64,000 bases of DNA from Candidatus Gastranaerophilales bacterium (GTDB lineage Bacteria; Cyanobacteriota; Vampirovibrionia; Gastranaerophilales; Gastranaerophilaceae). Of the stretch, positions 10,190 to 29,043 are shown piece by piece. Position 1 is the stretch's first letter. Every line of letters starts with the position of its first letter. The notes under the pieces are model-generated. The model saw nothing but the letters and a program-made list of their open reading frames with translations, was not told where the DNA came from and made no database searches. The stretch lies in contig CALUYE010000001.1 in assembly GCA_944324945.1 (NCBI GenBank), forward strand, positions 186,001-250,000. The letters are read 5' to 3'. The position numbers were made by a program, and so were the translations under genes.

Positions 10190-11714
10190 AAAAATATTAA
10201 TTTCATTTATCGCTTTGAGCCTTTTATTAACAACAGCTGCCGGTTTTTGCGATGAAGATAAAAAAAATTTAGATAAGGGATTAAAGATATTTCAAAAAAA
10301 TAAAAAAGAAAAAAAAATAAAAGTAAAACCCAAAAAAATCAAAAAAGAATTCCAGCCTTCAAAAAAGGTGCAGGAAGAATATTCAATCCCGACAAATATT
10401 TATATGCCCGTCGGTGAAAAAAGCGATAAAGTCGTAAAGCTTGAAGGCGGTGTTTCAAAATCAATCGAGCTTAATATGTCCGATTGTATCGAGCTTGCTT
10501 TAATTAATAATCCTAAAATTAAAGCCGCTTATGCAAAATCGGAAATAGCAAAATATCAAAAATGGGAAACTCTTGCAGGCTATACTCCGTACTTGGATTG
10601 GTCAAGCTCCGTAAAACACAATATGCCAGATTTAAGTATGATTAGAAATTTGAAAGCAAGCGCTTTTGATAAATACGTACTTGGTACAATCAGTATAAGA
10701 CAGCTTGTTTGGGATTTCGGGTATACGCAAAATCAATATACAATTGATAAAATTGCATACGAAAGATCAAAAACAGAAATTGATTCAACGGTAAATGAGG
10801 TTGTGTGTGCGGTAAAAGATGCATATTATAACCTTGCATACGCTTTTGATAAAAAAAAGGTAGCTCAGGAAGCGCTTGATAACTACACAAAGACTTATCA
10901 TCAGGCAATGGCGTTTTGGGAAGTCGGAACAAAAACAAAAGTAGATGTTTTATTTGCGCAGACAAACATGGAAGATGCAAGAGCGCAGTTGATTTCTGCC
11001 AATAACAATATAGATATTGCATACTCGCAGCTAAATAACGCCATGGGGCTTCCATTTTCGGATCCTTATATGATAGATATTTCACTTAAATATGAGCCCG
11101 TAAGTATTACCATGAAAGAAGCGGTTGAAATTGCAAACAATTCAAGGCCCAATCTTAAAGGAACCATGTTAAGCGTTGATGAAGCCCATCAAGGGGTTAA
11201 GCTGGCATGGAAATCGTTTTTGCCGAGTATTGAGTTTCAGGCAAGCTATTCAAAAGGCGGTGTTAACAGCTGGACAGACAGGCACTGGTATGATATCGGA
11301 GGATATTTGGAATTTCCGACAGTAAATCCCGTTTTAATCAGAAATCAAATAAAAGAAGCGAAAGCATTGTATGAACAAACGCAATACGAAGCAAAAGCTC
11401 AAATAAACGATATTTATTACGAAATACAAAGCGTTTATACAAGATTAAAAGACGCAAAAGCAAGAATACCCGTTGCAAAAGTTGCCATGGATAAAGCTCA
11501 GGAAAATTACGAACTGACATCAGGCAGATATAAAGTCGGTTATGGCGATGCCATTGAATTAAAAGATGCTCAAGTAGCGCTTGTAAGTGCTAAATTGGCA
11601 TATTATCAAACAATATATGACTATAACAGCGCAAGAGCCAACCTTGAAAAATCAATAGGTCAAACCCTAAAACCTGATAGCAGCGAAGTCATTGACAATT
11701 TCCAGGATATATAA
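10182..11714 (+). CDS. TolC-like outer-membrane efflux protein (RND partner)
   Basis: Outer-membrane channel of the RND pump. A signal peptide ([18 protein letters not shown]) is followed by a Lys-rich linker of about 45 residues (dense KK pairs). Two outer-membrane-efflux repeats follow, each opening with the typical segment ([20 protein letters not shown] and [20 protein letters not shown]). The end contains [19 protein letters not shown] and [15 protein letters not shown], both typical of the second alpha-helical repeat. Its length of 510 fits the family. SD-like GGAGG lies just before the start, inside the pump gene. The basic linker after the signal peptide is shared with the next TolC paralogue and may be lineage-specific. 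Confidence 0.92.
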
Positions 11715-19089: not shown

Positions 19090-19126
19090 AATAAATAGGC
19101 ACTACATAATGTAGTGCCTATTTATT
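19090..19126. terminator. Bidirectional intrinsic terminator between pgk and carB
   Basis: A 16-bp perfect stem (19090-19105 with 19111-19126) has a 5-base loop. Core arms are GGCACTAC and GTAGTGCC, flanked by A and T runs on both sides, so it can stop transcription from either direction. It overlaps the carB stop codon. Confidence 0.9.
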
Positions 19127-22100
19127 ATTTAAATATATCCATCAATTTCTTTTTTCTGTAGTTTGTGATTGTGTCGTAGTCTAGGTGGGGGGATTTGTCG
19201 TAGACGCGGTAGGCTTTTAGGAAGGCGTTGGCGGTGTCGATTGAGGTGAAGCTTGGGACGCCGTAGATTTGTGCTATTGTTCTTATTTGAAAGCCTGCGT
19301 TTTGAGAATTTTTGCCTGTTGTCGGTGTGTTTATAATAAAGCTCAAGCGTCCGTTTTTCATACGTTTTTGAAGTTTATCAATCATGAATTTTTCTATCAT
19401 TTTAGATGGAATTCCGTTCTTTTCAAGGAATTTGTGTGTTCCCCAGGTTGCCATGATGAAAAATCCCTGTTTGAACAATTTTTTAACCATGGGAAGTGCC
19501 TGTTGTTTACAGTGATCGTTTAGAGAAACAAGAACCCTTTGTTTTGAATTTGAAAATTTGTAGCCGCCTGCTAAAAATGCTTTGTATAGGGCTTTTTTGT
19601 AAGTTTTATCTATTCCTAAAACCTCGCCTGTAGATTTCATTTCAGGAGCAAGGGCAGGATCTATTCTGTTTAATTTTTGCCAAGAGAATACGGGCATTTT
19701 GACGCTTACAAGGTTTGATTTTTTGTATAAACCAACGCCATACCCTGAGCGTCTTATTGATTTACCCAAAATTGCGCGGATTGCGATTTTAACCATGGGG
19801 ATTCCCGTAACTTTACTCATTATGGGAACCGTTCTTGAGGCTCTCGGGTTAACTTCGATAACGTATACTTTATCATCTTTTATGATGAATTGAATGTTCA
19901 TTAAACCTTTAATATTTAATTTTCTTGCGATTTGAGTTGCGTATTTTACAAGAATTTTTTCATTTTTTCTTGAAATATTCTGGCTTGGATAAATGCTCAT
20001 TGAATCGCCTGAATGCACCCCGGCGCGTTCGATATGTTCGCAAATACCCGGGATTAAAATGTCTCTGCCGTCGCTTATGGCATCAAGTTCAACTTCCTGT
20101 CCTTCAAGGTATTGATCTATTAAAACAGGGTGTTCGTTTGAAAATTTAAATGCTTCGTTGATATATGTCAATAATTCATCATCGTTATATACAACCTGCA
20201 TGCCTCTGCCGCCGATTACGTAACTCGGGCGGACTAAAACGGGGTATCCTAATTCTTTAACTGCATTTAGTGCCTGTGTAGCATTTGTTACGGCAACTCC
20301 TTTGGGCTGTGCTATATTTAATTCTTTTAAAAGTTTTTCAAAAACTTTCCTGTCTTCAGTTGCATTTATGCTTTTTAAGCTTGTACCGAGGATTTTAATT
20401 CCGAGTTCATCCAGTTTTTCTGCAAGGTTAATGGCGGTTTGACCTCCGAATTGGACAAGAACGCCTTTGGGATTTTCTTTTTTTATAATATTCATAACGT
20501 TTTCGATATTCATAGGCTCAAAATAAAGCCTTGTCGCAATATCGAAATCGGTTGATAGTGTTTCCGGGTTAGAATTTATCATAACCGATTCATAGCCTTG
20601 ATTTCTTATCTCAAGTGCCGCATGGACGGAACAGTAGTCAAATTCAATACCCTGACCTATTCTAATCGGCCCTGAACCAAGTACGACAATATTTTCTTTT
20701 GATTCATCTTTGTATTTTTTGAGTTCGCATTCTTCATTGTATGTTGAATAAAAATACGGAGTTTTTGCACTGAATTCTGCAGCGCAGGTGTCAACAATTT
20801 TAAATGATGCATCAACATTATATTCTTTTAAAATATGTTCGGGTGTTGATGAAAATCTCGATATTTCTTCATCTAAAAAGCCCATTTCTTTGGCTTTTAT
20901 GTATAGTTCTTTATCGAGTTTTGAATTTATAAGTAAATTTTCTATCTCGACAATTTCTTTAATTTTAGCTACAAACCATTTGTCGATTTTTGTAATTTTA
21001 CACAATTCATCAATCTCAATTCCGTTATTTATGGCCTGGGCAAGTCTGAAAATTCTTCTGTCGTCTTGAATATACAGTTCTTTTAAAAGCTCTTCATTTT
21101 TTAATTTGTCAAAACCTCTGTGCAAAAGTCCTAAATAACGTTCCTCAAGTGAAGCGACGGCTTTTTTGAATGCGGAATTAAATGTTCTTCCGATAGCCAT
21201 AATCTCGCCCGTTGCTTTCATTTTGGTGCCTAAAATTCTATCGCCTGTTGAAAATTTGTCAAAAGGCCATTTTGGAATTTTGACGACAACATAGTCAAGA
21301 GCCGGTTCAAACGCTGCCGTTGTTCCCGTTATTGAATTTTTGATTTCGGATAGATTATATCCTATGGCAATTTTTGTAGACATTTTTGCAATTGGGTATC
21401 CCGTTGCTTTGGATGCAAGTGCGGATGAGCGCGAGACTCTGGGGTTTACTTCAATTACGTAGTATTGATTTGATTTAGTATCAAGCGCAAATTGAACGTT
21501 GCACCCGCCTTCGATTTTAAGCGCTCTTATGATTTTAATTGCGCTTGAGCGCAGCATTTGAAATTCGTTATTTGTCAATGTCTGACTCGGAGCTACAACA
21601 AAGCTGTCGCCCGTGTGGATACCTATCGGGTCAATATTTTCCATATTACAAATAATTATACAGGTATCGTTTGCGTCTCTTAAAACTTCATATTCTATTT
21701 CTTTAAAGCCTGCTATTGATTTTTCAACAAGTACTTGATTAATTGGCGATTGAGAAAGTCCTGTATAGACTATTTGTTCATATTCTTCTTTATTTCTTGC
21801 AATACCGCCGCCTGAACCGCCTAAAGTGAAAGCAGGTCTTATAATAATCGGAAAACCTATTCTTTCGCTGAATTTCAGTGCTTCTTCATAACTTGAAACG
21901 ATTTCGCTTTCAGGAATAGGTTCACCTATATCCTGCATTAATTTTTTAAACAGTTCTCTGTCTTCTGCCTGTCTTATTGAATTAATATCCGTTCCTAAAA
22001 TTTTTACGTTGAATTCTTCTAAAACGCCTGCTTTATCTAATTCACAGGCTAAATTAAGAGCGGTTTGTCCGCCAAGAGTAGCAATTAAACCTTGCGGACG

Positions 22101-22340
22101 CTCTTTTTTAATTACTTCTCTTAAACATTCAACGGTTAAAGGTTCAATATATACTTTGGATGCTATTTGTTCATCCGTCATAATAGTAGCCGGATTAGAA
22201 TTAACAAGGACTACTTCTATATTTTCTTCGCTTAAAGCACGACATGCCTGAACGCCTGCGTAATCAAATTCCGCTGCCTGTCCGATTACAATCGGACCTG
22301 AGCCTATTACAAGAATTTTTTTAAGAGATTTATTTTTCAT
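19125..22340 (-). CDS. carB: Carbamoyl-phosphate synthase large subunit
   Basis: Makes carbamoyl phosphate from bicarbonate, ammonia and two ATP for pyrimidine and arginine synthesis. At 1071 residues it is full length. It has two homologous ATP-grasp halves (GSGPIVIGQAAEFDYAG near residue 12; GSGPIRIGQGIEFDYCSVHA near residue 553), glycine-rich loops (LGGSGGGIA; IGGRGMQVV), and a C-terminal methylglyoxal-synthase-like allosteric domain (residues about 930-1071). It is the last gene of the pyr operon and overlaps carA by 11 bases. Its 3' end lies within the terminator shared with pgk. Confidence 0.97.
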   Translation of the reverse strand: MKNKSLKKILVIGSGPIVIGQAAEFDYAGVQACRALSEENIEVVLVNSNPATIMTDEQIASKVYIEPLTVECLREVIKKERPQGLIATLGGQTALNLACELDKAGVLEEFNVKILGTDINSIRQAEDRELFKKLMQDIGEPIPESEIVSSYEEALKFSERIGFPIIIRPAFTLGGSGGGIARNKEEYEQIVYTGLSQSPINQVLVEKSIAGFKEIEYEVLRDANDTCIIICNMENIDPIGIHTGDSFVVAPSQTLTNNEFQMLRSSAIKIIRALKIEGGCNVQFALDTKSNQYYVIEVNPRVSRSSALASKATGYPIAKMSTKIAIGYNLSEIKNSITGTTAAFEPALDYVVVKIPKWPFDKFSTGDRILGTKMKATGEIMAIGRTFNSAFKKAVASLEERYLGLLHRGFDKLKNEELLKELYIQDDRRIFRLAQAINNGIEIDELCKITKIDKWFVAKIKEIVEIENLLINSKLDKELYIKAKEMGFLDEEISRFSSTPEHILKEYNVDASFKIVDTCAAEFSAKTPYFYSTYNEECELKKYKDESKENIVVLGSGPIRIGQGIEFDYCSVHAALEIRNQGYESVMINSNPETLSTDFDIATRLYFEPMNIENVMNIIKKENPKGVLVQFGGQTAINLAEKLDELGIKILGTSLKSINATEDRKVFEKLLKELNIAQPKGVAVTNATQALNAVKELGYPVLVRPSYVIGGRGMQVVYNDDELLTYINEAFKFSNEHPVLIDQYLEGQEVELDAISDGRDILIPGICEHIERAGVHSGDSMSIYPSQNISRKNEKILVKYATQIARKLNIKGLMNIQFIIKDDKVYVIEVNPRASRTVPIMSKVTGIPMVKIAIRAILGKSIRRSGYGVGLYKKSNLVSVKMPVFSWQKLNRIDPALAPEMKSTGEVLGIDKTYKKALYKAFLAGGYKFSNSKQRVLVSLNDHCKQQALPMVKKLFKQGFFIMATWGTHKFLEKNGIPSKMIEKFMIDKLQKRMKNGRLSFIINTPTTGKNSQNAGFQIRTIAQIYGVPSFTSIDTANAFLKAYRVYDKSPHLDYDTITNYRKKKLMDIFK

Positions 22341-23436
22341 TTCTTACCTCGTTAATTCTGTTTGTTTTTTTATTTAAAATATTTATCCATTCATCAAAAA
22401 TAATTGATGCGTCGTTTGGCCCCGGTTTTGCTTCGGGGTGGAATTGAACCGCATAAACTTTCATCCCCTCAATTTCAAAGCCTTCAAGGGTATTATCGTT
22501 TAAATTTTTATATGTCGGTCTTATGATTTTGGGTAATTCTTTTATATCAACCGCATAACCGTGATTTTGGCTTGTTATCATAACTTTATTATTTTCTAAA
22601 TTAATAACGGGATGATTTGCACCTCTGTGTCCGTATTTTAATTTATAAGTAACAGCGCCTGCAGCAAGTGCAAGTAATTGATAACCCAGGCATATTCCAA
22701 AAATCGGAATCTGCCCCATCATTTTTTTAACTTCTTCAATTTGAAATCTGTAATCAGCAGGATCCCCGGGGCCGTTTGATAAAAATACGGCATCGTAATT
22801 TGAGGATAAAATTTCATTTGCCGTGGTAGAGGCAGGATATACGGTTATTTTACATCCTCTTTTTGCCAAAGACTCAATAATTCCTTCTTTGGCGCCGTAA
22901 TCCATAAACGCCATGTTAATTGTGCCTTCTTTATTGTATTCATAGCTTTTATCGCACGTTACTTCATCTAAAAGCGTTGGTAAAGTTTTGAAATTTTGTA
23001 TTTTTTTAATTTTTTCTTTAATAAATTCTTCATCAACATCGTTTGAAGTAATAAAAGCGCTCATGGTTCCCGCTTCTCTTATTTTTTCTACAAGCGAGCG
23101 GGTATCGATATTATCAAGAGCTATTATGTTATTTTCCTTAAAGTACTCTGAAATATTCTTTTGAGATAAATAGTGGCTTTCTTGATTACAGAAATCTTTT
23201 GCAATCATACCAAGCATCTGCGGTTTTTTTGATTCAAAATCAAAATCGTTTATACCGTAATTTCCAATTTCGGGATATGTCATAACAACAATTTGTTTAG
23301 CATAAGAAGGATCGGTTAAAATTTCCTGATAACCTGCCATGGAAGTATTAAAAACGATTTCACCTTCATAGCCTCCTATTGCACCTTTTGATTCTCCTTT
23401 TATAACGCTTCCGTCCTGAAGTATCAATGTACCCAT
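22330..23436 (-). CDS. carA: Carbamoyl-phosphate synthase small (glutaminase) subunit
   Basis: Class I glutamine amidotransferase that supplies ammonia to CarB. Length 368 is standard. The N-terminal CPSase small-chain domain has GYEGEIVFNTSMAGYQEILTDPSY. The C-terminal amidotransferase has the nucleophile Cys in PIFGICLGYQLLALAAG, the GHRGANHPV loop, SQNHGYAVD, and the catalytic His-Glu pair in QFHPEAKPGP. It is 17 bases after pyrF and overlaps carB. No separate carA promoter was evident, so it is read with the pyr operon. Confidence 0.97.
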   Translation of the reverse strand: MGTLILQDGSVIKGESKGAIGGYEGEIVFNTSMAGYQEILTDPSYAKQIVVMTYPEIGNYGINDFDFESKKPQMLGMIAKDFCNQESHYLSQKNISEYFKENNIIALDNIDTRSLVEKIREAGTMSAFITSNDVDEEFIKEKIKKIQNFKTLPTLLDEVTCDKSYEYNKEGTINMAFMDYGAKEGIIESLAKRGCKITVYPASTTANEILSSNYDAVFLSNGPGDPADYRFQIEEVKKMMGQIPIFGICLGYQLLALAAGAVTYKLKYGHRGANHPVINLENNKVMITSQNHGYAVDIKELPKIIRPTYKNLNDNTLEGFEIEGMKVYAVQFHPEAKPGPNDASIIFDEWINILNKKTNRINEVRNEK

Positions 23437-23453: not shown

Positions 23454-24182
23454 TTATAATTCTTTTATTTCTTCATAAACTTTTTTTATTGCTTCAATTT
23501 TATCTTCGCTTTTTGTTATTGCTCTTCCTAAAACTATATAATCCGCTCCGTCATTAATAGCACTTGAGGGTGTTGCTATTCTTTTTTGATCGTTTTTAGA
23601 TGACCATAAGGGTCTTATACCAGGAGTTAGGACAATAAAATCTTCTCCCAGTTCTTTTTTTATAATTTTTAGTTCATGGGCTGATGCGACTACACCGTCT
23701 AAACCTGCTTCTTTAGCGTTTTTAGCAAGCTGTAAGACCATATTTTCCACACTGTTTTTGTTTAAAAGTTCTTTTTCTAAAATATTTTCATTTATACTTG
23801 TTAAAATTGTAACCGCTAAAATTAAAGGGGCTTGTTTATTATATTTTTGAGCGGCTTCAAGAGCACCTTTTTTTGCCGAGCGCATCATTTCAATCCCGCC
23901 TGTTGCGTGGACATTAAAGAAATTTGCTCCGTTTTTTATGATGTTATAAGAAGCTTTTTCAACAGTGTTTGGAATATCGTGCAGTTTAACATCTAAAAAG
24001 AAATTTGAATTTTTTTCTTTTATATAATTTATAATCTCAAGCCCGTATCCGCAAAACAATTGCAGACCTACTTTAAAAGTTCCTATATATTCACCCAATT
24101 CATCAACTAATTTTTTTGCTTCGTCAATTTCTTCAACATCAAGCGCTAAAACCAGCTTTTTTTTGATTTCTTCATTGTTCAT
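23454..24182 (-). CDS. pyrF: Orotidine 5'-phosphate decarboxylase
   Basis: Last step to UMP. The 242-residue TIM barrel starts KKLVLALDVEEIDEAKKLVDEL and carries the catalytic Asp-Lys-Asp array in FFLDVKLHDIPNTV. The phosphate-binding end reads LTPGIRPLWSSKNDQKRIATP, followed by ADYIVLGRAI. This is the bacterial PyrF group with a compact barrel. It overlaps pyrC by 11 bases and is followed by carA. Confidence 0.96.
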   Translation of the reverse strand: MNNEEIKKKLVLALDVEEIDEAKKLVDELGEYIGTFKVGLQLFCGYGLEIINYIKEKNSNFFLDVKLHDIPNTVEKASYNIIKNGANFFNVHATGGIEMMRSAKKGALEAAQKYNKQAPLILAVTILTSINENILEKELLNKNSVENMVLQLAKNAKEAGLDGVVASAHELKIIKKELGEDFIVLTPGIRPLWSSKNDQKRIATPSSAINDGADYIVLGRAITKSEDKIEAIKKVYEEIKEL

Positions 24183-25173
24183 AAATAATTCTTCCTTTTA
24201 ATTTCATGCCTTTATATGGAGATACCTTGCATTTTGTTTTAAATAAAGTAGGTGCCACAAGCCATTGTTCGTCAAGGGCTGCTTTTATCATTTTTGTGTT
24301 GTGGATTTTTAAGATTTTTCTCGGGTTATAGGCTAATTTTTCTAAGGTTTTGTCAAGTCCCAAAAGTTCATAAGATAGTGAAAACGCTGTTTCTAAGCCT
24401 GTTATTCCGTTTGGAGCTTCACTGTAAGGAGACAATTTTTCGGCATTGGAATGCGGGGCATGGTCTGTTGCAATAACATCAATGGTATTGTCAAAAAGCC
24501 CGTCCATAATTGCTCTTTTATCCGCTTCATCTCCTAAAGGAGGATTCATTTTAAAAGTTCCCGTATTATCAATATCGTTTTTTGTAAAAGTAAAATAATG
24601 AGGAGCAGTCTCTGCGCTCAAGTTTTTCAAGCCTTTGCGCTTTGCTTTTCTTATTAATTCGACGCTTTCTTTTTTTGATACATGACAAAAATGCAGTCTC
24701 GGGCAAAAGCCTGATTTTATTACACGTTCGAATAATTCAATCTGCCAGTTTATTTCGTTTGTTTCATCTTCGCAATGAGATAAAATCAATTCTTCGCTTT
24801 TCAGTGCTTCCAAAAATACATCTTTATCTAAAATAGGCAAGCCGTCATTTGAAAAAGCTATGGCACCTGCTTGTTTTAATTCTTTAAAGTTAACAAGTTC
24901 CCCTGAATTTAAATTTTTTGTAACTGCTGCAACGGGATATATGTCAAAATGATATTTTTTTGCTTTTGATAAAATCTCTTTAATCACTTTAACATTGTCA
25001 GCAACAGGGTTGGTATTAGGCATTGTGCAAACCCCCAAAAAGCCTCCCGCTCTGGCTGCTTTTATCCCTGTTTCTATTGTTTCTTTATATTCAAAACCGG
25101 GTTCTCTAAAATGCACATGCATATCTATAAATGAAGGTATGGTTGTGATTTTGTAATTTTTTTCTTTAATCAT
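24172..25173 (-). CDS. pyrC: Dihydroorotase, class I, lacking the N-terminal barrel strands
   Basis: Cyclises carbamoyl aspartate to dihydroorotate. Active-site motifs are intact: metal ligands HVHFREPG, MPNTNP, AFSNDGLP, ILSHCEDE, HFCHVSK, and ATDHAPHS, with the substrate loop PNGITGLETA. The protein has only 333 residues, while class I enzymes are usually about 420-430. It begins 13 residues before PSFIDMHVH, so the N-terminal half of the composite beta domain is missing; the C-terminal half (LKGRIIYEQ) is present. Only 1 base separates it from pyrB, so no upstream coding has been lost by a simple frameshift. It is probably active, with a trimmed side domain. Confidence 0.93.
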   Translation of the reverse strand: MIKEKNYKITTIPSFIDMHVHFREPGFEYKETIETGIKAARAGGFLGVCTMPNTNPVADNVKVIKEILSKAKKYHFDIYPVAAVTKNLNSGELVNFKELKQAGAIAFSNDGLPILDKDVFLEALKSEELILSHCEDETNEINWQIELFERVIKSGFCPRLHFCHVSKKESVELIRKAKRKGLKNLSAETAPHYFTFTKNDIDNTGTFKMNPPLGDEADKRAIMDGLFDNTIDVIATDHAPHSNAEKLSPYSEAPNGITGLETAFSLSYELLGLDKTLEKLAYNPRKILKIHNTKMIKAALDEQWLVAPTLFKTKCKVSPYKGMKLKGRIIYEQ

Positions 25174-25174
25174 T

Positions 25175-26065
25175 TTAATATCCCTGAGAAGATAAAATCA
25201 TATCTAATACCGCCATTCTGACAAATACGCCGTTTCTTGCCTGATTTAGAATAGTGCGTGCATTTTGTGTTTCTAAAACATCGCTTCTAATTTCAATATC
25301 ACGGTTTATCGGCCCCGGATGCATTAAAACTGCAGCATAGGGAAGATTTTCTTTCGTAATTTGAAATTTCTCAATATATTCACTAAAGTTAATCTTTTCT
25401 TCAATTCTTTCTTTTTGGATTCTTAAAGGCATAATAATATCGGCTTCTTCAAAAGCCTCTTTAAGAGAGTTAAAATATTCAACTCCTTCAATTTTTTCGC
25501 CCATGAAAATATCGTCGCTTAAACATCTTATATTCATATTGGCTTTTTTAAATATTTCAATATCCGATTTTGCAACGCGCGAATGTGCAATATCTCCGAC
25601 TATTGTTACGGTTTTACCTTTTAAATCCATGAAGTGTTTTTTAAGTGTATAAAAATCAAGAAGCGCTTGCGTGGGGTGAGCGCTTTTGCCGCTTCCCGCG
25701 TTGACAAAAGAAATATCTTGAAAATATTTCTTTTTGCTGAGTTCAAAAATTAAATCATCATCGCTGTGTCTTAAAATAACAAGATTCATCCCGATTGCGC
25801 ACAGATTATTTATCGTGTCAAAAATTTCTTCTCCTTTTGATATTGAAGATGAATTTGCGCAAAAATCGTATTTATTTGCATGGATTTTATTTGACGCCAT
25901 TTCAAAAGACATTTTTGTTCTTGTTGAATTTTCAAAAAACATATTTACAATGTGGGCGTTTAGATGGTTTGATTTTCTTATTCCTTTTTCAAACTCGTTT
26001 GCGCGAAAATAAATTTGATTGATTTCATCGTTTGATAAACTTTTAATATCCAGTAAATGTTTCAT
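25175..26065 (-). CDS. pyrB: Aspartate carbamoyltransferase catalytic subunit
   Basis: Condenses carbamoyl phosphate and aspartate. The 296-residue protein has the carbamoyl-phosphate loop FFENSTRTKMSFEMA, the 80s loop SSSISKGE, AHPTQALLDFYTL, the Asp-binding segment PLRIQKERIE, and MHPGPINRDIEI. No regulatory pyrI is present in the window, so the enzyme is probably of the unregulated or PyrC-associated type (inference). It overlaps pyrE by 1 base and precedes pyrC by 1 base, a pairing consistent with a physical ATCase-DHOase complex as known in some bacteria. Confidence 0.96.
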   Translation of the reverse strand: MKHLLDIKSLSNDEINQIYFRANEFEKGIRKSNHLNAHIVNMFFENSTRTKMSFEMASNKIHANKYDFCANSSSISKGEEIFDTINNLCAIGMNLVILRHSDDDLIFELSKKKYFQDISFVNAGSGKSAHPTQALLDFYTLKKHFMDLKGKTVTIVGDIAHSRVAKSDIEIFKKANMNIRCLSDDIFMGEKIEGVEYFNSLKEAFEEADIIMPLRIQKERIEEKINFSEYIEKFQITKENLPYAAVLMHPGPINRDIEIRSDVLETQNARTILNQARNGVFVRMAVLDMILSSQGY

Positions 26066-26634
26066 TATTTTCTGCTCCCCGGTTTAACAAGTTCAATACC
26101 TTTTTTGCATAAAGGACAATCCTTGGCTTCATAAGTAACAGGGCTTGATTTTAAAAGGGAATAAATTTTAAATTCGCTGTCAAGTTTACCTTGAGTCCTG
26201 TCTACAATACAGCCTACTCCTTTTATTTCGCAATCAAATTCCTTTAGTGCTTCTTTTGTTTCAAAAACAGTACGTGCTGTTGTTATTACATCTTCAATAA
26301 TAACTATTCTTTCTCCCTTTTCGATTTTATAGCCGCGTCTTAATTGCATTATATTATCTTTTCGCTCGACAAAAAGGTTTCTTTTTTTTGCTTGACGCGC
26401 AACTTCATAACCGAATATAACAGCGCCTATTGCGGGAGCTACAATTGTATCAAAGTCTATTTCTTCCAATTTTTTTGCTAATTTGTATGCTAATTTTTCA
26501 ACAACATCGGGATACTGGTATAATTTTGCACATTGAAAATATGTATCGGAATGCAGTCCTGAAGTAAGGCAAAAATGCCCCGATAAAAGTCCTTCGTATT
26601 TAATTAAAAGTTCTTTTACATCAATATTATCCAT
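26065..26634 (-). CDS. pyrE: Orotate phosphoribosyltransferase
   Basis: Adds ribose-5-phosphate from PRPP to orotate. The 189-residue protein has the family fold with SGLHSDTYFQCAKLYQYP and an unusual PRPP loop, IVIIEDVITTARTVFETKEAL, where the common TTGGS reads TTART. The C-terminus, CPLCKKGIELVKPGSRK, matches the short-form (Thermus/Aquifex-like) PyrE branch. It overlaps pyrD by 8 bases and pyrB by 1. The ED acid pair that holds the PRPP ribose is intact, so activity is expected. Confidence 0.94.
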   Translation of the reverse strand: MDNIDVKELLIKYEGLLSGHFCLTSGLHSDTYFQCAKLYQYPDVVEKLAYKLAKKLEEIDFDTIVAPAIGAVIFGYEVARQAKKRNLFVERKDNIMQLRRGYKIEKGERIVIIEDVITTARTVFETKEALKEFDCEIKGVGCIVDRTQGKLDSEFKIYSLLKSSPVTYEAKDCPLCKKGIELVKPGSRK

Positions 26635-27568
26635 TAAGTATTGCTCCTTTTAAAGTTTCAAAATCATAAAAATTATTTTTTTCCATAAATTCGCACAATT
26701 CTAAAGCCAAAGAAGTACAAATTGAAGGAGTTTGAAAATTTGCGGTTCCGATTTGAAAAGCATCTGCACCCGCTAAAATAAATTCAAATAAATCGCTTAA
26801 TTTACAAATCCCGCCCATGGCAATAACAGGGATTTTAACGGCATTTTTAATTTGATTTACCATATAAAGTGCAACAGGTTTAATACAAGAACCCGATAGT
26901 CCCCCTTGAACCATTTTTTTGATAAATTTATTTCCGATATATTTAATATCAACTCCTAATCCTCTTAGGGTATTTATTGCGCTTATACAATCGGCGCCGC
27001 CTGATTCTGCTGCCATTGCAAGAGATTTAATATCAGAGGTGTTTGGAGATAATTTTACAATTAAAAATCCTTTGTAATTTTTTCTTATTTTAGATGTAAG
27101 AGAAAATAAACTTTCAGGGTTTAGCCCGAATTCTAAACATCCTTGTTTGACATTGGGACATGAAACATTTACTTCAAGCGCTTTTATTTCATTTTGAGAA
27201 GCAATAAGCGCAAGTTTTTCATAATCTTCAATTGTATTACCCGCTATATTTAATAAAAAATCAATCTTTTTTTCTTTTAAAACAGGTAATTTTTCTTTTA
27301 TAAAGTTTTCAATTCCGACATTTTCAAGCCCGATACGGTTAATCATGCCTCCCTGAACTTCAAAAATTCTGTCTCCGTCGTTTCCTAATCGTGATTCTAG
27401 TGTTATTCCTTTTGTTGAAATTGCGCCTAAGTAATCTAAATTAATAAAATCCGCATATTCGATATTGTATCCGTAAGTTCCAGATGCTCCTATAATCGGG
27501 GTTTTTAAAATCAGGGTGTTATTTGTTTTTTCGTTTTTTAAAACCGTTTTTAACTTTTCTATTCCCAT
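26627..27568 (-). CDS. pyrD: Dihydroorotate dehydrogenase B, catalytic subunit
   Basis: FMN enzyme oxidising dihydroorotate to orotate. The 313-residue TIM barrel has the FMN-binding start APIIGASGTYGYN-like (here TPIIGASGTYGYN), EVNVSCPNVKQG with the Cys base that defines class 1, KLSPNTSDI, and the phosphate-binding GGICKLSDLFEFILAGADAFQIG. The neighbouring pyrK shows this is class 1B, which passes electrons to NAD rather than fumarate or quinone. It overlaps pyrK by 10 bases and pyrE by 8. Confidence 0.96.
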   Translation of the reverse strand: MGIEKLKTVLKNEKTNNTLILKTPIIGASGTYGYNIEYADFINLDYLGAISTKGITLESRLGNDGDRIFEVQGGMINRIGLENVGIENFIKEKLPVLKEKKIDFLLNIAGNTIEDYEKLALIASQNEIKALEVNVSCPNVKQGCLEFGLNPESLFSLTSKIRKNYKGFLIVKLSPNTSDIKSLAMAAESGGADCISAINTLRGLGVDIKYIGNKFIKKMVQGGLSGSCIKPVALYMVNQIKNAVKIPVIAMGGICKLSDLFEFILAGADAFQIGTANFQTPSICTSLALELCEFMEKNNFYDFETLKGAILNG

Positions 27569-28287
27569 ATTATTTCACCCCCGAAAAACACAGGCCCGTC
27601 TTTACAAACAGAATAATTTTGAATTTTGTTGTTGCGAATTAATTTTATAACACATCCTCTGCAAACGCCGATTGAGCATGCCATAACTTTTTCAAGTGCA
27701 AGCTGTGAAGGGGTGTTTAATTTTGTTGAAAGTTCATCAACCATCTTTAAAACTACCTTAGGCCCGCAGGCATATATAAGCTCGATATTTTTTTCCTTAA
27801 TCAATTCTTCGATATTATCCATGACAGAACCGCCGATAACGGTTTTATCACTTCCTTTTATAATTTCATTTTCATTTTTAAAACCTGAAATTAAAAAGTT
27901 TTCTATATTTTTTTCATTTAATTCTTTTTTTAAAAACAGCATAGGCGCAATTCCTATACCGGCGCCTATTAGTAATGATTTTTTGTTTTCAATTTTAAAA
28001 CCGTTCCCTAAAGGAGCCAGAAAATCAATTTCATCTCCTTTTTTTAAATTTTTAAGGTAGCTTGTTCCTTCTCCTTTAAGTTTAAATAGAATTGTAGTTA
28101 AGCTTTCTTTTTCTTTTTTTTCAAAATCGCTTATGCTAAAAGGACGGCGCATGGTTTTATTGCCGCACAATATTGAAATAAACTGCGCAGGGTTTGCCCA
28201 TCTTAAATCTGATAAAATAACCATTTTATAAGTATCAAGCGCTATATTTTCAATTAATTCTATTTTTCCTTTGTAATCTTTTTTCAT
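27559..28287 (-). CDS. pyrK: Dihydroorotate dehydrogenase B, electron-transfer subunit
   Basis: Carries electrons from PyrD FMN through a [2Fe-2S] cluster and FAD to NAD. The 242-residue protein has the FAD-binding RPFSISDF, the NAD-binding LIGAGIGIAPMLFL, and a C-terminal cluster of Cys residues spaced C-x4-C-x2-C (CSIGVCRGC) plus a distal Cys (SVCKDGPVFFGGEI). It is the first gene of the pyr operon. AAAGG lies 5 bases before the ATG and only about 15 bases after a terminator-like hairpin, so transcripts must pass that hairpin to express the operon. Confidence 0.95.
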   Translation of the reverse strand: MKKDYKGKIELIENIALDTYKMVILSDLRWANPAQFISILCGNKTMRRPFSISDFEKKEKESLTTILFKLKGEGTSYLKNLKKGDEIDFLAPLGNGFKIENKKSLLIGAGIGIAPMLFLKKELNEKNIENFLISGFKNENEIIKGSDKTVIGGSVMDNIEELIKEKNIELIYACGPKVVLKMVDELSTKLNTPSQLALEKVMACSIGVCRGCVIKLIRNNKIQNYSVCKDGPVFFGGEIIWE

Positions 28288-28302
28288 TTTTGCCTTTATA
28301 TC

Positions 28303-28335
28303 AAAAAAAGGAAGGCGAAACGACCTTCCTTTTTA
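28303..28335 (-). terminator. Attenuator-like hairpin in the pyr operon leader
   Basis: On the minus strand an 11-bp stem (AAAAAGGAAGG with CCTTCCTTTTT; forward positions 28305-28315 and 28324-28334) is followed by a seven-T run (forward A run at 28303-28309, overlapping the arm). It ends 15 bases before pyrK, with no room for a promoter downstream. With the promoter at 28385-28413 upstream, this places an intrinsic terminator inside the operon leader, i.e. attenuation (inference). Confidence 0.75.
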
Positions 28336-28377
28336 TTTTATTTTATTAAATTTTGATGATTTTTTAATACTTTTCAT
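28333..28377 (-). CDS. Putative 14-residue leader peptide of the pyr operon
   Basis: An ATG 7 bases after the -10 box opens a 14-codon frame reading MKSIKKSSKFNKIK and ending in TAA at the base of the attenuator hairpin. It lacks a Shine-Dalgarno sequence but would be leaderless, as other genes here appear to be. In E. coli pyrBI a ribosome on the leader peptide blocks the terminator; the same logic could apply. Such a short AT-rich frame can arise by chance. Confidence 0.3.
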   Translation of the reverse strand: MKSIKKSSKFNKIK

Positions 28378-28384
28378 ACAAGTT

Positions 28385-28413
28385 ATTATAATCTAAACAT
28401 TGTTTTTTGTTAA
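28385..28413 (-). promoter_or_regulatory. Promoter of the pyr operon
   Basis: TTAACA (28408-28413), a 17-base spacer and TATAAT (28385-28390) form a near-consensus sigma-70 promoter reading towards pyrK. Predicted start of transcription is near 28378, giving a leader of about 90 bases. Confidence 0.8.
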
Positions 28414-28443: not shown

Positions 28444-29043
28444 CTATTCTATTTCCACCCTTCCTTCAAGAGCACGCGCCAGTGTCATTTCATCGGCATA
28501 TTCAAGCTCTGAACCCATTGGAAGCCCGAAAGCTATTCTTGTTATTTTAATATTAAAAGGTTTTAAAAGTTTATTTAAATACATTGCGGTTGCTTCTCCT
28601 TCAACGGAAGGATTCAAGGCCAAAATAACTTCTTCGATATCGTTTTGATTAATTCTGTATAATAATTCTTTTATTCTTATATCATCAACCCCGATGCCGT
28701 CTATCGGAGAAATTAACCCTTGAAGAACATGATAGAGTCCGTGGTATTCGTTTGTTTTCTCAATTGCCATTAAATCTTTTGTTTCACTTACAACGCAAAT
28801 TATTTTTTTGTTTCTTGTATGATCCGAACATATTTCACAAGGGCTTGAGCAGGAAATATTAAAACAATTTTCGCAGTAGGTTATTTTTGTTTTAGCATCC
28901 ATGAGCGCATCTGCAAATTCAGAAACATTACTTAAAGGCATTTTTATAACATGAAGCGCCAGCCTTGTTGCGGTTTTAGGCCCGATTGAAGGCAATTTTT
29001 GAAAACATTCGATTAATTTTGCAAGCGGCTTAGTATATTCCAT
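28444..29043 (-). CDS. recR: Recombination mediator RecR
   Basis: Works with RecO/RecF to load RecA on gapped DNA. Full length at 199 residues: N-terminal helix-hairpin-helix (LPSIGPKTATRLALHVIKM), a four-Cys zinc finger (CENCFNISCSSPCEIC) and a Toprim domain (IICVVSETKDLMAIEKTNEYHGLYHVL). It follows a TPR protein gene after 2 bases, and the pair is probably one transcript from the promoter at 29910-29937. It lies just upstream of the pyr promoter, not next to dnaX as is common, although dnaX is two genes away. Confidence 0.96.
   Translation of the reverse strand: MEYTKPLAKLIECFQKLPSIGPKTATRLALHVIKMPLSNVSEFADALMDAKTKITYCENCFNISCSSPCEICSDHTRNKKIICVVSETKDLMAIEKTNEYHGLYHVLQGLISPIDGIGVDDIRIKELLYRINQNDIEEVILALNPSVEGEATAMYLNKLLKPFNIKITRIAFGLPMGSELEYADEMTLARALEGRVEIE

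Follow-up and report, generated by a model that had tools for sequence, protein, structure and literature searches.

The pyrimidine operon pyrKDEBCF-carAB of an uncultured Gastranaerophilales genome is probably controlled as a whole by a ribosome-coupled transcription attenuator that resembles those of pyrE and pyrBI and senses UTP/CTP through the speed of RNA polymerase. We infer termination, translation, the effector and the pause site. The order Gastranaerophilales comprises gut bacteria related to cyanobacteria, and the DNA analysed is a stretch of 64,000 nucleotides of one such genome, here called the window. In the proposed mechanism, RNA polymerase would start approximately 50–65 nt before an intrinsic terminator, and a ribosome would load at once on a short leader ORF, through a 5′-terminal AUG in the window's genome and, in most relatives, downstream of a short 5′-UTR. 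With plentiful UTP and CTP, the polymerase would move fast through the loop and the 3′ arm, so that the hairpin is complete before the ribosome arrives and transcription ends there. With scarce UTP and CTP, it would slow down in a stretch of about 20 nt with 90% pyrimidines, which consists of the U-rich loop, the pyrimidine 3′ arm and the T run. The ribosome at the stop codon could then cover the 5′ arm, no hairpin would form and pyrKDEBCF-carAB would be transcribed. Such a switch would allow UMP to be made only when pyrimidines are short.

All elements of the switch and the operon lie on the minus strand of the window, in the order promoter, 14-codon ORF, terminator hairpin and pyrKDEBCF-carAB. 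The predicted promoter consists of a −35 hexamer TTAACA (28408–28413) and a −10 hexamer TATAAT (28385–28390) with a 17-nt spacer, and it matches the consensus at 11 of 12 positions. The −10 box is followed by AACTTGT (28384–28378) and then by the leader mini-ORF (28333–28377; ATG at 28377, stop codon at 28335–28333), whose 14 sense codons read MKSIKKSSKFNKIK. Judged by the −10 spacing and a genome-wide spike of TATAAT-N6/7-ATG arrangements, transcription is predicted to start leaderless at 28377–28379, at the ATG or no more than 2 nt from it. The attenuator hairpin (28305–28334), identified by folding, by covariation in relatives and by its purine asymmetry, has a polypurine 5′ arm and a polypyrimidine 3′ arm. 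Its stem GGAAGGT[CGTTTC]GCCTTCC starts 3 nt after the mini-ORF stop and is lengthened by A/T pairs, and a run of seven T (28303–28309) completes the intrinsic terminator. From the T run to the pyrK ATG at 28287 there are 15 nt, which leaves no space for another promoter. The first structural gene is pyrK (27559–28287; NF000798, E 2.7e-40, 138.6 bits, under the curated cut-off of 219), followed by pyrD (26627–27568; dihydroorotate dehydrogenase of the PRK07259/pyrD_sub1 family), pyrE (26065–26634), pyrB (25175–26065), pyrC (24172–25173; best model under the curated cut-off), pyrF (23454–24182), carA (22330–23436) and carB (19125–22340). The genes were assigned by matches to family models; PyrK and PyrC are good family matches, yet under the NCBIfam curated cut-offs. 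Together, the eight genes, which all point in one direction, are a full route to UMP. An earlier interpretation made from the letters of the DNA alone, the sequence-only reading, had described a near-consensus promoter, a 14-codon frame that begins 7 bases after the −10 box and stops at the hairpin base, no room for a promoter downstream of the hairpin, and the whole eight-gene UMP pathway behind one terminator. All of these features are present in the window.

A single promoter match is little proof alone, because promoter-like matches in this AT-rich window are not above chance (47 found, 47.9 expected), and we therefore relied on relatives. Only four strong terminator-like sites occur in the 64 kb of the window, and the hairpin is among them; the RNA folding z-score is −2.1. 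The decisive support for the predicted arrangement is comparative. PyrK was traced through the genus, the family, the order and a named genome collection, consisting mostly of Candidatus Gastranaerophilales MAGs from animal guts. Of the contig scans, one with a single PyrK protein gave nothing and one based on an alignment gave matches. A comparison of leader and mini-ORF across relatives, as the sequence-only reading had proposed, revealed the same layout ahead of pyrK in approximately 100 distinct leaders of the window's family (f1) and of two further families of the order (f6 and f7). Nearly all of these leaders carry a TATAAT box or a close match, a short ORF, a hairpin with a T run and then pyrK. 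The attenuator is missing in the distant families f2 and f3 (L174–L182). In one f3 locus without the attenuator (L180), pyrK itself looks leaderless (TATTTT-AGTATT-ATG). At two other loci of the window's genome, pyrG and upp, the genes lie directly behind other genes without such a leader, so that among the three loci inspected the switch was seen only at the pyrK operon.

Within the window's genus, 26 of 28 genomes have a PyrK match, and the two others (G013 and G014) have no pyrB either. About half of the f1 genera are without pyrK. In 20-odd pyrK-less genomes checked from other genera of the family, pyrB is missing as well, and the pyrimidine pathway as such appears to be lost in them; the attenuator was thus seen where the pathway exists. 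The joint loss of both genes in the tested genomes suggests widespread pyrimidine auxotrophy in this gut family.

Clustering of the leaders at 80% similarity gave 60 clusters. An ATG-initiated ORF of at least 7 codons whose stop codon lies −3 to +14 nt from the stem core was found in 50 of the 60, where related leaders are non-independent trials for which the clustering corrects only partly. By the same criterion, 400 trials with dinucleotide shuffles averaged 7.8 and never exceeded 15, while reversed leaders gave 2 and reverse complements 7. The ORFs are 7–15 codons long, centred on 12, and the distance from stop codon to stem core in the relatives is mostly 2–14 nt. Around 10 of the 60 clusters miss the strict criterion, and the ORF of some leaders (L046, L050, L060, L070 and L185) extends into the hairpin or across it. 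By these counts the predicted mini-ORF is real, and the position of the stop codon is consistent with the earlier proposal that a ribosome on the mini-ORF could block the hairpin. The encoded peptides are not conserved between genera, and their residue composition is like that of shuffled leader DNA. Near pairs of leaders differ by 18 synonymous and 56 non-synonymous changes (dN/dS approximately 0.62, from few sites and with a weak synonymous excess). Because of the shuffle-like composition and this ratio, what is kept is, on comparative grounds, the stop position of the ribosome rather than the peptide product. Sensing by a nascent peptide is unlikely, since the peptides differ between genera.

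Two recurrent motifs were observed close to the leader ORF stop. Many leaders of the window's genus (e.g. L006, L007, L009, L016, L020, L021 and L022) carry TGAAGTATGA directly before the hairpin, with stop codons in two frames; this motif is absent from the window's own leader. In another genus (L051, L125, L129–L135, L138–L140 and L154), the leader ORFs repeatedly show K-x-E-Y / GAATATA a little ahead of the stop, which could be a peptide or pause signal.

A conserved stop codon with a variable peptide would also be expected if the attenuator sensed general translation capacity, an amino acid or a charged tRNA instead of UTP/CTP, and any change in the relative speed of ribosome and polymerase would act on such a leader. 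We consider this unlikely. The peptide composition resembles that of shuffles, regulatory codons do not occur in a run, and the operon behind the switch is that for UMP, with a pyrimidine-biased terminator that is atypical for the genome. Classical amino-acid attenuation was rejected on the same composition and codon evidence and because mutually exclusive hairpins are missing from the leader.

In the window, 7 nt separate the end of the −10 box from the mini-ORF ATG. Across 103 leaders this distance is bimodal, with 6, 7 or 9 nt in 12 leaders and at least 16 nt in the rest; most relatives have a 5′-UTR, with 16–26 nt from the −10 box to the start codon. In about 20 leaders the assignment of the −10 box was corrected by eye, which leaves some subjectivity in the 6-nt leaderless class, while the exact TATAAT boxes of L001, L003, L044 and L045 were called automatically. 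In 464 kb of the window's genome (L186–L205 and the window), the distances from perfect TATAAT boxes to ORF starts peak at 6–7 nt (22 of 73 within 40 nt; binomial P about 5e-12). A peak at 6–7 nt between −10 box and start codon is a signature of leaderless genes (PMC3160421), and leaderless mRNAs seem to be common in this Gastranaerophilales genome. On the PyrK tree, the leaderless arrangement recurs on separate branches; no fewer than 6 changes are required to explain it, and well-supported branches force 4 of these. A leaderless leader peptide, as the sequence-only reading had suggested, is therefore plausible for the window's genome, given the 7-nt distance, the genome-wide spike and this recurrence. 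It does not extend to most relatives with their 5′-UTRs: leaderlessness is a lineage variant and not a defining feature of the switch.

In an alignment of 17 gap-free hairpins of the leaders, 100% of the cells are paired and both sides have changed in 8 of 11 pairs, with 29 compensatory cells compared to 6.6 in shuffles. Judged by this covariation, the hairpin is kept by compensatory change. The 5′ arm core is 87% purine in the attenuators versus 53% in 64 intergenic terminators of the window's genome, and it contains at most one pyrimidine in 50 of 60 versus 9 of 64 (Fisher P = 3e-15). The T content of the loop is 66% in the attenuators and 41% in the intergenic terminators. Loop, 3′ arm and T run together form a tract of about 20 nt with roughly 90% pyrimidines just past the stop codon. 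This tract would be a natural place for a UTP/CTP-dependent slow-down as the ribosome reaches the stop codon. The polypurine stems may partly persist because compensatory change through G-U intermediates keeps the purines on one side.

A partial terminator might also act constitutively, setting a basal level of expression while the mini-ORF tunes readthrough and nothing is sensed. Regulation is a part of the preferred attenuator that we infer, which speaks for this reading. We nevertheless regard it as improbable, as an ORF and a terminator stand order-wide before the pathway that makes the substrates of RNA polymerase, and the hairpin is maintained by compensatory change.

Control of the terminator by an RNA-binding protein or by a small-molecule RNA structure, like PyrR or a riboswitch, finds little room in these leaders. 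No PyrR scored above the cut-off in any of 35 genomes; the matches were weak, reaching at most about 43 bits where the cut-off is 138. This bears out the statement of the sequence-only reading that the operon has no pyrR, extends it to all 35 genomes and led us to reject PyrR-dependent attenuation. No Rfam family reached its gathering score in the leader, and a scan at low threshold returned sub-gathering matches of unrelated families. Neither a PyrR-binding loop nor an antiterminator was found by the Rfam scan or by folding upstream of the hairpin, where no stable structure was detected (median −2.95 kcal/mol), which argues against a classical antiterminator. The leader sequence is also poorly conserved between genera. 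The genus-specific motifs near the stop codon, TGAAGTATGA in the window's genus and GAATATA in the genus of L051 and L138, could be binding sites, but such control seems very unlikely. UTP-dependent reiterative initiation of the pyrBI, carAB, codBA and upp type was rejected, since no U run after the −10 box is conserved in the relatives and the predicted start of the window reads (G)TATGAAAAG; a start that supports reiterative initiation is, for example, GUUUGC in carAB P1 (PMC6245113).

The upstream neighbour in the window is recR (28444–29043), which lies on the same strand outside the switch; most relatives have a divergent gene at this place (66 of the 77 loci whose flank was long enough). 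With a divergent gene upstream and a gap of usually 10–60 nt between hairpin and pyrK in the relatives, transcription from the promoter has to pass the terminator to reach pyrK. That the hairpin is merely the ordinary recR terminator, with pyrK expressed by readthrough from upstream, could draw on the same-strand recR of the window and on other terminators of the genome that lie close to the following gene, but it is hardly credible and, as a general explanation, refuted: promoter, mini-ORF and hairpin are still present beside divergent genes, where the hairpin is therefore not a neighbour's terminator, and in the window the hairpin lies approximately 110 nt past the recR stop with the promoter in between. 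Main transcription of pyrK from within recR with complete readthrough, which the sequence-only reading had named as evidence against itself, likewise cannot explain these relatives. Its conditional terminator ahead of pyrK is instead supported by covariation, recurrence and the divergent neighbours. In L006, L033, L036 and 31 other leaders, a palindrome-like box GTWACANNTRTTTACA (e.g. GTAACAATTGTTTACA) was observed about 27–48 nt upstream of the −10 box, in the spacer that separates pyrK from a divergent gene of about 160–170 aa. It is absent from the window and may act as an operator of the divergent gene or of both genes.

For the preferred ribosome-coupled attenuator, the composition of the leader counts as a point against it: before the hairpin the leader is A-rich (52% A, 28% T), unlike the U-rich pause region that lies ahead of the terminator in classical pyrBI. 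In E. coli, a ribosome that terminates at a stop codon almost completely represses a terminator a few nucleotides further on, an effect that fades by about 30 nt (PMC4824070), and the stop-to-stem distances of the relatives fall within this range. However, it is doubtful whether a ribosome can catch an unpaused polymerase within the first 100 bp (PMC4824070). With a leader of 40–65 nt, the ribosome may thus fail to do so, which also counts against the preferred reading. It is a realistic possibility, somewhat short of probable, that the terminator's own polypyrimidine strand serves as the UTP/CTP brake while a ribosome on a leaderless micro-ORF races the polymerase over less than 60 nt, with neither a regulatory protein nor a dedicated upstream pause region.

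The predicted switch would regulate the UMP pathway of a gut lineage of Cyanobacteriota/Melainabacteria as a whole and without a repressor, and no earlier report of such regulation was found in the searched literature (openly licensed PMC papers). Pyrimidine attenuation through ribosome coupling has been studied in E. coli; the switch would add an unrelated phylum, in which the leader is much shorter. The approximately 100 leaders vary naturally in ORF length, stop-to-hairpin distance and 5′-UTR and thereby offer a test bed for the closeness of transcription and translation. Given that leaderless micro-ORFs recur, it may be asked whether the need for a ribosome to reach the polymerase within 60 nt favours leaderless initiation. 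As a separate observation, L202 carries at 10880–11010 what we take to be a guanidine-I (ykkC-type) riboswitch with a terminator, ahead of a transporter of the small multidrug-resistance type.

Compared to known systems, the leaders share a premature terminator before the pyr operon with the PyrR-dependent attenuators of Bacillales, but differ in lacking a PyrR above cut-off and an antiterminator or binding-loop structure. The anatomy is similar to that of the UTP-modulated attenuator of E. coli rph-pyrE, which also has an intrinsic terminator before a pyrimidine gene and works with no repressor. There, readthrough and its regulation are made possible by a translated ORF, rph, through the place of its stop codon close to the hairpin (PMC2784333, citing Bonekamp 1984). 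Unlike in rph-pyrE, the ORF here is a leader of 7–15 codons and not a full gene, eight genes stand behind one switch, the terminator is polypyrimidine and the phylum is unrelated. With E. coli pyrBI, the leaders share an ORF and a terminator before pyrimidine genes; pyrBI coupling is governed by transcriptional pausing, and its terminator lies inside the leader ORF (PMC4824070). The sequence-only reading had compared the blocking of the hairpin to pyrBI, and the coupling anatomy it implied is supported. The stop just before the stem, however, brings the arrangement closer to pyrE, and unlike pyrBI the leader is much shorter and A-rich, with no sign of reiterative initiation. In trpL attenuation, tryptophan is sensed through charged tRNA. 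The trpL leader of Sinorhizobium meliloti resembles the window in its ORF for a 14-aa leader peptide that begins at the RNA 5′ end (PMC7298713), an end that is predicted in the window. Unlike trpL, the leaders described here have no regulatory codon run, and their target is the synthesis of UMP.
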